NCBI GenBank assembly: GCA_018067055.1 | Contig: JAGPVK010000377.1 | Span: forward strand, 1-13,952 | Length of the DNA: 13,952 nt | Origin: Sphingomonadales bacterium | GTDB taxonomy: Bacteria > Pseudomonadota > Alphaproteobacteria > Sphingomonadales > Sphingomonadaceae | Direction: 5' to 3' | Part shown: positions 3,162 through 10,239 of the stretch, piece after piece | Position numbering within the stretch: the first letter of the stretch is position 1 | How the letters are laid out: every line of letters begins with the position of its first letter | Program-made: the position numbers and the translations under genes | The notes under the pieces: model-generated | The model's database searches: none | What the model saw: the letters and a program-made list of their open reading frames with translations, nothing else | Told to the model about the DNA's origin: nothing

Positions 3162-3701
3162 ATGAGAATCACTTATACCCCCCTGTTCGTTTCCTTGGCC
3201 TTGCTCGCACTGTCAGCATGTTCAACCGCGCCACCAGAACCGGCCCCGGCACCGCAACCGGCGAAACCCATCGCAACGCCCGCACCGGCACCGATGCAGC
3301 CGAAGGGGGAATGGATTGACTGGCCGATCACTCCCGGCGCCTGGGCCTATCGAAAGGATGGTCGCGGCTCACTGGCACTATTCGGCGAGGCCGACCGAGA
3401 CGCAATTTTCATCATCCGCTGCGATCATTCGCGTCGGCAATTATTTCTGTCCCGGGCCGGTTCGGTTGGCCAAAATGCTAAGATGGTTTTGCGGGCCAGC
3501 GCGGGCATGGCATCCTACCCGGCTGTCAATAGTGGTGGAACACCGGCATATACGGCTATTTCGGTATCGCCCGGCGATATCATGATGGACCGCATTGCCT
3601 ATAGCCGCGGCCGCTTTGCAGTCGAAACCAGCGGATTGGAATCTTTAGCCATTCCTGCCTGGCCGGAATTCAGTCGTGTGGTGGAAGATTGCCGAAACTG
3701 A
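3162..3701 (+). CDS. Proline-rich lipoprotein of unknown function
   Basis: A 179-residue predicted lipoprotein. The signal peptide MRITYTPLFVSLALLALSAC ends in the lipobox LSAC, so C20 would be lipidated. A linker very rich in Pro and Ala (about 23-47) follows, a common tether between the outer membrane and a periplasmic domain. The globular part (about 50-179) starts at EWIDWPITPG, has Trp/Gly-rich strand-like segments and two cysteines (RCDHS and near the C-terminus, EDCRN) that could form a disulfide. I do not recognise a named family. The ATG at 3162 is chosen because it starts the signal peptide directly; the 17 codons upstream in frame add nothing signal-like. It is divergent from tlyA and ends about 120 bases before the small gene at 3819. 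Confidence 0.8.
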   Translation: MRITYTPLFVSLALLALSACSTAPPEPAPAPQPAKPIATPAPAPMQPKGEWIDWPITPGAWAYRKDGRGSLALFGEADRDAIFIIRCDHSRRQLFLSRAGSVGQNAKMVLRASAGMASYPAVNSGGTPAYTAISVSPGDIMMDRIAYSRGRFAVETSGLESLAIPAWPEFSRVVEDCRN

Positions 3702-3775
3702 TCCGCTCGTCATCAGGCCGGAACGCGCAATTGTGACAGCAAAATAAAAAAATTCAAGACTTGTTCGCGAGTCGA

Positions 3776-3788
3776 ATTTGATTCAAAT
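3776..3788. repeat. Perfect 13-base palindrome ATTTGA-T-TCAAAT
   Basis: Six-base arms around a single central base, 31 bases upstream of the first possible start codon of the small gene at 3819. Placed where a promoter or operator would be expected. No consensus -35/-10 pair is clear around it. The region is AT-rich, so chance is possible. Confidence 0.5.
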
Positions 3789-3818
3789 CTAGATCGTCGA
3801 ACAGCGGAGAAGATTTCA

Positions 3819-3923
3819 ATGCAACAGTTCGTATTACATTCACAAGCGAAAGGAGGTGGTCCGATGTCTCATGGTTCAGCACAGGGGTCGGAAAAATCCG
3901 TTCGGGGGGCATCTCTGATTTAG
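3819..3923 (+). CDS. Very small protein or leader peptide with an exceptional ribosome-binding site (19 or 34 codons)
   Basis: Reading frame too short for usual gene finders. The stronger start is the ATG at 3864, giving the 19-residue peptide MSHGSAQGSEKSVRGASLI, stop TAG at 3921-3923. It is preceded by AAAGGAGGTGGTCC (3849-3862), which can pair over 14 bases with the 3' end of 16S rRNA with a single G-U wobble. An in-frame ATG at 3819, with GGAG nine bases upstream, would give a 34-residue version in which the SD bases are read as KGGGP. The peptide is hydrophilic with no signal or membrane segment, and I do not recognise it. No same-strand gene follows. A hairpin and a strong intrinsic terminator close the unit at about 4007, so it stands alone as a small mRNA or dual-function RNA. 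Translation itself is an inference from the SD sequence. Confidence 0.55.
   Translation: MQQFVLHSQAKGGGPMSHGSAQGSEKSVRGASLI
3849..3862 (+). promoter_or_regulatory. Extended Shine-Dalgarno sequence (14 bases)
   Basis: AAAGGAGGTGGTCC matches the full complement of the 16S rRNA 3' tail (AAAGGAGGTGATCC) except for one base that still allows a G-U pair. The core AGGAGG ends seven bases before the ATG at 3864. No other SD in this window comes close in length. It favours 3864 as a true start. Confidence 0.75.
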
Positions 3924-3939
3924 ATATCAGGCTACCCGG

Positions 3940-3960
3940 CAGCGGCACTTCCTACCGCTG
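3940..3960 (+). ncRNA. Hairpin with an anti-Shine-Dalgarno loop in the 3' part of the small transcript
   Basis: CAGCGG (3940-3945) pairs perfectly with CCGCTG (3955-3960) around the nine-base loop CACTTCCTA. Eight of the loop bases, CACTTCCT (3946-3953), can pair with AGGAGGTG (3851-3858), the SD of the same transcript, with one G-U pair. A further weak stem, CTGAT/ATCAG (3915-3919/3926-3930), straddles the stop codon. The loop could hide the SD in cis as a long-range kissing interaction, or bind SD sequences of other mRNAs in trans, as C/U-rich loops of some alphaproteobacterial sRNAs do. Function is inferred from complementarity only. Confidence 0.5.
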
Positions 3961-3970
3961 ACCCATGTTC

Positions 3971-4007
3971 AGAGGCTGTTGATCCTGCGGGATCGGCAGC
4001 CTCTTTT
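3971..4007 (+). terminator. Strong intrinsic terminator of the small gene
   Basis: A 15-base-pair stem (3971-3985 with 3990-4004, including two G-U pairs), tetraloop TGCG, then a T run to 4007. The T run is on the plus strand only. Read on the minus strand the hairpin is followed by TGAACA, so it is not a good terminator for the DUF2721 gene, whose stop codon (4009-4007) abuts it. It is direct evidence for a plus-strand transcript ending here. Confidence 0.85.
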
Positions 4008-4486
4008 CATTTCTTCCAATCGGAATTTTCGAGATATTCTTCGCGGATCATGAAATCGCGAATACCGGTGCGCACTTCGCGTGAAAATTGGATGAGCGCC
4101 ACAGACAGCAAAATGACGGCGATGATGAAAGCGCTGGCAACAATTTGCGCCAATGCCGGATGACTGGTCAGCCCCATCACAAACAGCAATCCGATCAACA
4201 CACAAACAACAATGGAACTCACCACACTGAGGTAAATGGCGCTGTTCACATATTTGATGCGCAATTGCAGATCGCGGAGTTCATGGACGCATAATATATG
4301 CTCTTCTCCTTCAGTTTCGAGATAGCGATCCTGCATGATCCGGGCCCGGTCAATGATCCGCTCCAGTCGACCAGTAAAAATATTGAGCATCCCTCCCAGA
4401 GCGACCAGCAGAAATGCCGGAGCCATCGCCGTTTGCAGCACGGTGACGATATCTGTTTTTGCCAATTCCGGTAGCACAGAAATCAT
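4007..4486 (-). CDS. DUF2721 family membrane protein
   Basis: A 159-residue predicted inner-membrane protein of the DUF2721 family, recognised by the N-terminal helix TVLQTAMAPAFLLVALGG followed by LNIFTGRLERIIDRAR. Hydrophobic segments lie at about 15-36, 83-104 and 112-135. The stretch between the first two (about 38-80) is charged, probably helical and cytoplasmic or periplasmic. The biochemical function is unknown. The ATG at 4486 overlaps the stop codon of the upstream siroheme gene as ATGA and has AGGA eight bases upstream, so translational coupling is likely; a longer in-frame start at 4537 is less convincing. It is the last gene of the argH-lysA operon. No clear own terminator was found. 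Confidence 0.85.
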   Translation of the reverse strand: MISVLPELAKTDIVTVLQTAMAPAFLLVALGGMLNIFTGRLERIIDRARIMQDRYLETEGEEHILCVHELRDLQLRIKYVNSAIYLSVVSSIVVCVLIGLLFVMGLTSHPALAQIVASAFIIAVILLSVALIQFSREVRTGIRDFMIREEYLENSDWKK

Positions 4487-5259
4487 ATCTTCATCCTGAT
4501 TCTGACGGTCAGACCGTTCGCCGGATTCTCGTCCCATAACGCCAGGCCGAACCGTTCCGCATCGGCTCTGGCGCGATCCAGAATGCTTTCCGGCACATCA
4601 TCGCTGGCAAAAATCTGGTCGGCTCGTCCCAGCAACCGCGCTTGCCGCAAGGTCAGATCATCAGGGTCAGCGCTGGTCAGCATTATATCCTCAACCTCGG
4701 ACAGGTCCTCTGCGAAAGGCATCGATAGCCATGTTTCGAGATTGGCTTCCGAGCCTTCGGACAGCACATCGAGGGCGCCGCCAGGATCCAGTGCAGTGTC
4801 AATCGCCTTTCGGCGCTGGACACCATCTGGCCAAATCTGCTTGATCCGGTCCCGCGCAGCAGCAAGACCGCTGGCCAGGCCGCCGAGATTTCCAGGGACC
4901 AAACGCTCCAGTCTTTGGCGCAGGGATTTGGCAAGACCCGCCGAAGCCCCCCCGGTGCCAATCGCAATCAATACCGGGTCGCGGTCAATGATCGCCGGCG
5001 TGGTGTAATCACACAAGGCTGACCGGTCGACGGCGTTGACCAGCAGACCTCTCGCCTTGAGACGTTCTACCGCTGCCAGCGCATCGTCCTCATTCTCCAG
5101 CGCGACCACCGCAAGAGCGACATCCGCCGCCGCTTCATCATCGACAATGACGGCTCCTGCGCGTTCATATAACCGTCTTTTGGCGTCTGCCATTTCTCCT
5201 GTGCCGAGCAGAATGACCTTTCGTCCGGAAAGGTTCACAAAGATCGGCAGCTGGTTCAT
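4483..5259 (-). CDS. Siroheme synthase-like protein: precorrin-2 dehydrogenase/ferrochelatase domain with a broken methyltransferase remnant
   Basis: Resembles the N-terminal half of CysG (Met8p-like), which oxidises precorrin-2 with NAD and inserts iron to make siroheme for sulfite/nitrite reductase. Of 258 residues, 1-36 match the CysG start (LPIFVNLSGRKVILLGTGEMADAK), with GTGEMA in place of the usual GGGxVA. N75-A-V-D78 corresponds to CysG NVVD with catalytic Asp104. DYTTPAIIDRDPVLIAIGTGG (84-104) matches the dimer/active-site region, with Thr102 where CysG has Ser128. About 25 residues of the NAD domain between 36 and 70 are missing relative to CysG. Residues 189-239 resemble the first part of the SUMT methyltransferase domain, but its SAM loop GAGPGD reads TSADPD and the rest of the domain is absent. 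Overlaps lysA and the DUF2721 gene by four bases each. Confidence 0.85.
   Translation of the reverse strand: MNQLPIFVNLSGRKVILLGTGEMADAKRRLYERAGAVIVDDEAAADVALAVVALENEDDALAAVERLKARGLLVNAVDRSALCDYTTPAIIDRDPVLIAIGTGGASAGLAKSLRQRLERLVPGNLGGLASGLAAARDRIKQIWPDGVQRRKAIDTALDPGGALDVLSEGSEANLETWLSMPFAEDLSEVEDIMLTSADPDDLTLRQARLLGRADQIFASDDVPESILDRARADAERFGLALWDENPANGLTVRIRMKI

Positions 5260-10165: not shown

Positions 10166-10239
<74 letters not shown>

Follow-up and report, generated by a model that had tools for sequence, protein, structure and literature searches.

CC2171 is a family of RNAs spread through the Alphaproteobacteria, which is filed in Rfam (RF01867) as type "Gene; sRNA" with no mention of a reading frame found there. 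For Caulobacter, 133 ncRNAs have been reported, of which 27 were known before, and profiling describes the intergenic ncRNA regions as untranslated (Schrader et al. 2014, PMC4117421); the passages on ncRNAs in that study do not name CC2171. In the passages covered by the literature search, RF01867 appears only in two tables. Neither a role for CC2171 nor a reading frame is described in the literature searched, a scope that does not extend to the founding paper (Landt 2008) or the supplements and is no proof of absence of such a frame. Herein, a locus is described that is related to this family by its sequence and that appears to be kept translatable.

The locus lies in a window of 13,952 nucleotides, meaning the whole stretch of DNA that was analyzed, from a member of the Sphingomonadaceae. 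Its features are collected in Table 1. The initial annotation had described a 14-base Shine–Dalgarno sequence, a 19-codon frame in good position, a 15-bp terminator with a T run, and a 6-bp hairpin, the latter without a position. The first three are present on the plus strand, and the hairpin is best fitted by the perfect stem CAGCGG/CCGCTG, which is probably the one that was meant. That no gene follows on the same strand also holds, the next gene (DUF2721) being convergent. The transcript would have a length of roughly 200 nt. A Pfam search of the upstream neighboring ORF (3162-3698, plus strand) gave no match, and the sole match of Rfam at the curated cut-off across the window is a tRNA gene (10167-10239, minus strand).

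Table 1. Features of the putative RNA gene and its surroundings in the window
Feature	Position	Strand	Remarks
Upstream block GACTTGTTCGCGAGTC...GATTC	3758-3784	+	Two GANTC sites (3769-3773, 3780-3784); probable promoter region (putative role)
Alternative in-frame upstream ATG	3819-3821	+	34-codon frame to the same stop
Putative RNA gene, whole unit	3849-4012	+	14-nt site, ATG, 19-codon frame, terminator
14-nt site AAAGGAGGTGGTCC	3849-3862	+	Complement of the 14 terminal 3′ bases of 16S rRNA (one G-U pair)
Start codon ATG	3864-3866	+	Single G spacer between AAAGGAGGTGGTCC and ATG
19-codon frame MSHGSAQGSEKSVRGASLI	3864-3923	+	With TAG stop (3921-3923)
Basal helix P1, 5′ strand CATGGTTCAGC	3870-3880	+	Predicted fold
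Apical hairpin	3915-3930	+	Stop codon in loop, 5 pairs in the window copy; predicted fold
6-bp stem CAGCGG/CCGCTG	3940-3960	+	Alternative to P1 (part of the same 3′ strand)
CACTTCC	3946-3952	+	Possible partner of GGAGGTG within the 14-nt site (closed fold); energy prediction
Basal helix P1, 3′ strand GCTGACCCATG	3957-3967	+	Predicted fold
Intrinsic terminator	3971-4012	+	15-bp stem (3971-4004) and T-rich tail
DUF2721 gene	4007-4537	-	Next downstream gene, convergent

The 14-nt site forms a computed duplex of -23.4 kcal/mol with the 16S tail. With up to two mismatches allowed, it would be expected 0.15 times in the window by chance, and the sole exact copy found in its own draft genome is that of the window. 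The 16S end GGATCACCTCCTTT was found in one of the 11 genomes searched (G033, same family), where the 16S gene ends exactly there; we take this end to be common to the other members of the family. Site and start together occur once in each of 24 genomes of the genus and are absent from 16 genomes of other families.

In a DNA search, 54 of 98 genomes gave a match, including all 32 of the window's genus. None of the 39 genomes from other families of the order was matched, and outside the genus the match mostly covers little more than the site, the start, and the initial codons. Of 298 family genomes, 221 contain the exact 25-nt core AAAGGAGGTGRTCCGATGTCTCATG, which thereby covers 78 of 96 genera, with one copy per genome among the matches listed; its reversed control gave no match among those listed. 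At least 120 stretches were matched by a looser pattern scanned against contigs of named genomes, with titles from Sphingomonadales, Rhizobiales, Rhodospirillales, Acetobacteraceae, Caulobacterales, and others, including three Azospirillum loci; the pattern demanded a start codon, and frame length is the only independent result there. One listed stretch is titled Candidatus Kuenenia, a label that may be wrong. A plasmid search gave no match for the window copy and likewise none for one canonical copy.

Compared with the RF01867 covariance model, the window copy reaches 30.9 bits and lies below the gathering cut-off of 75. The match does not appear at the curated cut-off but only when an E-value threshold is applied and relatives are added; in its own genome, the window copy has an E-value of 1e-4 and is the better of two matches. 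It aligns to model positions 1-159, meaning all 159, with a poorly aligned middle. Related copies form a chain of scores from 88.5 (L052) and 77.5 (L054) over 58.1, 50.1, 49.4, and 40.6 down to 30.9 bits, and the first two, which come from the same family as the window, exceed the cut-off. Because of this sub-cut-off score, the full-length match, and the chain of intermediates, the window element is, in these model comparisons, a divergent relative of CC2171 below the curated limit. Across the class, the model matches 85 of 385 genomes at an E-value of 0.001 or better, 13 of them over the cut-off, with a control that gave a match in Caulobacter alone. Across the order, it matches 194 of 296 genomes at an E-value of 0.01, one of them over the cut-off, with a control match outside the class too (Deinobacterium chartae).

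What the window element shares with CC2171 is the 14-nt site, the RTGTCTCAT start region, and a closing helix adjoining the terminator. The P1 and inner helices of the window copy, however, have another sequence. Canonical copies mostly read AAAGGAGGTGATCC, A, GTG, and TCT CAT TG..., and their basal helix is CATTGTC/GACAATG as opposed to CATGG.../...CCATG in the window type. A further CC2171-type group (L214, L218, L235, L242, and similar) has frames ending in EQPS-like residues, and some of its members contain a GGAGCAACCTTC-like hairpin core.

From 203 starting matches, 189 distinct elements were obtained by dropping identical copies, two duplicates of the window (L031 and L058), one truncated locus (L096), and the Azospirillum loci L132, L162, and L174, whose frames of 57-59 codons were treated as a different gene. 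In 188 of the 189 (96/96 and 92/93 by group), the in-frame stop follows the start at a distance of 14-26 codons, vs 50 in the +1 frame and 44 in the +2 frame, and none has a stop before codon 14; with the Azospirillum loci kept, the count is 188/192. After clustering, 76 of 77 clusters show the stop at 14-26 codons; the two other frames give 16 and 11 clusters, and shuffles average 16.9 with a maximum of 30; herein, relatedness is handled by clustering at 70% similarity only, and the shuffles keep single-base content only. Six loci off the start pattern were left uncounted. Judged by eye, four of them have frames of 18 (L051), 25 (L083), 23 (L087), and 26 codons (L089), and two (L057 and L059) are not copies. 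The loci L132, L162, L174, and L213 combine the same 14-nt site and start with a frame of 55-59 codons that has, by eye, the look of a secreted small protein.

The frame is also kept among the class-wide model matches, with the site present within two mismatches in 38 of 40 (28 exact) and a frame of 14-30 codons in 33 of the 38, vs 9 and 4 in the other frames; the test covers 40 of 62 matches without locus, with mostly the weakest left out, and the model itself weighs site and start. The five frames outside this range have 32, 34, 34, 35, and 55 codons. In 31 of 31 genus copies, a count that omits L014 because it is shifted by a deletion, the stop columns contain only T, A/G, and A/G, and the following column contains all four bases. 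Among the 68 other copies of the family, the frame has 18 codons in 62. The upstream ATG at -45 is open and in frame in all 32 genus loci; among 68 other family copies, 13 have an ATG as their most distant open in-frame start within the 150 bases upstream. As judged from these comparisons, a "non-coding" family of the RF01867 type keeps a reading frame, which is a new point.

The region 3795-4012 (218 nt) has a computed folding energy of -83.4 kcal/mol (z -4.3), which none of 200 shuffles equals. The stretch from 3870 to 3967 is predicted to form a single long hairpin of 34 pairs, all of which enclose the stop codon. The folds of 94 of 96 and 70 of 93 elements, in which the 3′ strand of P1 was located by pattern, allow a comparison of the stop position. 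Contact between the stop and a hairpin loop is seen in 26 of the 28 genus elements (vs 1.8 expected), in 29 of 66 other family copies (vs 5.6), and in 22 of 70 canonical copies (vs 6.8). Relative to the maximum number of enclosing pairs, the stop reaches 0.98, 0.86, and 0.79 in these sets, respectively, vs position means of 0.52-0.53. In 32 distant members of the class (of the 40 model matches), the stop is loosely placed, at 0.64 vs 0.41 for the position mean. The idea of a stop always at the hairpin tip was confined to the genus and, in a looser form, to the family. In L056, as seen by eye, the tip of the long hairpin holds an extra hairpin-like insert directly behind the stop codon.

The covarying stems that the initial annotation had suggested to search for are partly found in the hairpin. 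In one subgroup of the family with 26 copies, 94.3% of cells pair and 13 pairs are changed on both sides, vs none of 500 shuffles and 1-8 in slid versions of the structure; since these sequences also served to draw the structure, the percentage of paired cells is favored, and the changes on both sides are the stronger sign. In 27 genus copies, four pairs are changed on both sides, a number reached by three of 500 shuffles, and in the apical hairpin of the genus this applies to two of six aligned pairs. By pattern, the alternative stem CAGCGG/CCGCTG is present in 27 of the 28 copies of the genus. In minimum-energy folds, the site pairs with ACTTCC in all 28 genus elements and in 12 of 26 from group B; for 70 canonical elements, ACTTCC does not appear in the list of the 12 most frequent partners. 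Given these counts, the idea that CACTTCC always hides the ribosome site was abandoned for the wider family. In the genus, the closed fold lies below the site-free fold in all 28 elements, by a median of 5.4 kcal/mol and by 7.5 kcal/mol in the window copy. By the computed energies, the 16S duplex would suffice to cover the cost of opening the closed fold, and a switch between the folds is predicted on this basis.

The region upstream of the genus and family copies is rich in GANTC. Within 160 bases, 28 related genus loci contain 47 such sites vs 16.6 expected, and 67 other family copies contain 95 vs 39.1, whereas the canonical copies are hardly enriched (59 vs 50.2); all expectations derive from simple shuffles keeping single-base content only. 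Control by CcrM/GcrA via GANTC sites is a possibility. In one genome of the same genus (G006; L029, L057, L251, and L252), the 3′ arm of the RNA is separated from the apparent old terminator by a region of about 22 kb. This region is flanked by a direct repeat of 27-28 bases, CAGCGGCACTTCCAACCGCTGACC(C)ATG, and contains a tyrosine integrase and a Prim-Pol gene. In this genome, the RNA gene appears to be used as an integration site.

The maintained start, frame, and stop behind a strong ribosome site would suit an ordinary small-protein gene, with the peptide as product and the hairpin only tuning its translation or stability. In the canonical set, the conservation of VSHC and of TWI-like residues points the same way; the peptides there mostly start with VSHC, and a W is common to 58 of 93. 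In a substitution test on single-difference codons among close pairs, synonymous changes are in slight excess in the genus (22 vs 13.7 expected) and in the canonical set (61 vs 47.9), but they fall below expectation in the family outside the genus (36 vs 48.6). Across the 68 other Sphingomonadaceae elements, third codon positions even change least (41 vs 61 and 71), and the residues after MSH vary freely while the frame length of 18 codons holds. The test is shaped by the hairpin, as indicated by one control frame in the family with 89 synonymous changes vs 53.9 expected, a larger excess than in the real frame. The synonymous bias proposed as a check by the initial annotation is thus weakly present in the genus and fails in the rest of the family, which leaves a plain small-protein gene unsupported there; in these alignments, the amino acids of the family outside the genus are without protein-like conservation. 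The frequent W and the slight synonymous excess of the canonical set leave room for a working peptide. A Pfam search with the 34-codon version gave no match. As the explanation of the element, a small-protein gene is somewhat unlikely.

An RNA that binds the 30S subunit would use the 14-nt complement to sequester or guide the 16S 3′ end, and the frame would be a clean exit for ribosomes. This is an unlikely reading, although the complement covers the whole 16S tail, site and start occur once per genome in the genus, the start codon follows one base from the duplex, and intergenic ncRNA regions of Caulobacter are reported as untranslated (PMC4117421). A safety stop would set an upper limit only, yet 0/189 elements stop before codon 14, and in the parts of the Staphylococcus aureus study considered, pairing extended toward the start codon is compatible with initiation (PMC13009471). 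The same profiling of Caulobacter, which counts intergenic ncRNAs as untranslated (PMC4117421), and the filing of the family as an sRNA in Rfam would also agree with a conventional antisense sRNA of the CC2171 family, whose frame is a by-product of constraints on structure and sequence; the frame-specific placement of the stop, far beyond that in other frames and shuffles, makes this very unlikely. A short frame followed by a hairpin and a terminator is, furthermore, the classic layout of a leader peptide or attenuator of a downstream gene. In the window, however, the next gene lies on the opposite strand, and the same is true for the next long ORF in 107 of 203 copies, as called by a crude ORF caller. 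With this caller, every one of the four possible orientations is seen among the nearest long ORFs around the 203 copies, which argues that the element is not the leader of one gene and agrees with the stand-alone unit, other than an ordinary leader, of the initial annotation. A comparison of the first 40 residues of the neighboring long ORFs by eye shows that several family copies share a downstream ORF, with no arrangement common to all found. The attenuator was set aside as highly improbable, a conserved same-strand downstream gene not being found across the 203 copies with the crude caller.

The explanation that we tentatively prefer is a free-standing gene, present in one copy, whose product is a structured RNA with a length of about 200 nt, related to CC2171 and kept translatable, in which the act of translation gates the RNA. 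Because frame and stop are kept while the amino acids drift in the family, the act of translation is the likelier selected property, and it possibly, though by no means certainly, matters more than the peptide. The peptide is probably a by-product in the window's family and may matter in other orders. In this gene, a 30S subunit would dock on the 14-nt site, which is complementary to the whole 16S 3′ tail, and the ribosome would translate up the 5′ arm of the hairpin and thereby melt it. Termination would occur near the hairpin tip, with the 3′ arm staying single-stranded while ribosomes keep loading. The active form would be the 3′ arm or the opened, ribosome-protected RNA, and the RNA could report free 30S subunits or translation capacity. 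In the genus, the off state would be the closed fold, in which CACTTCC pairing buries the ribosome site. A whole class of RNAs gated by their own translation, with a free 3′ arm reporting available 30S subunits and a drifting peptide sequence, is a somewhat doubtful extension. A counterpoint to the preferred explanation is that the stop touches the loop only in a minority of copies outside the genus (29/66 and 22/70). CC2171 is presumably among the 27 previously known ncRNAs of Caulobacter, which would oppose translation under the conditions of the profiling study. Of the small protein or dual-function sRNA supposed by the initial annotation, the translated RNA is the part that fits the maintained frame and the covarying hairpin, and the plain small-protein gene is unsupported in the family outside the genus. 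The relation to CC2171 and the long hairpin are additions to it.

If start, frame, and stop are kept, CC2171 is a different kind of gene than the one it is filed as, and direct tests are possible. If the preferred explanation is true, the element would be a natural case in which selection favors pairing with the complete 16S tail, and it could act as a sensor of how many ribosomes are available. The SEP1 peptide of Sinorhizobium meliloti was set aside as the same frame by its description, the stated pI of 4.18 being ill-suited to the peptides of this element (PMC10117765). The rnTrpL/peTrpL system of Sinorhizobium, as far as it is described in the passages considered, likewise combines a short RNA with a translated frame, which for the window RNA is deduced from comparison; rnTrpL, however, derives from the trp attenuator and is leaderless, whereas the window RNA is free-standing with an extended ribosome site (PMC10117765). 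The extended Shine–Dalgarno sites of S. aureus, in the parts of the report considered, share the 16S pairing that reaches past the core site toward the start; they are presented as a habit of that species, whereas here one site per genus genome is tied to a hairpin RNA (PMC13009471).
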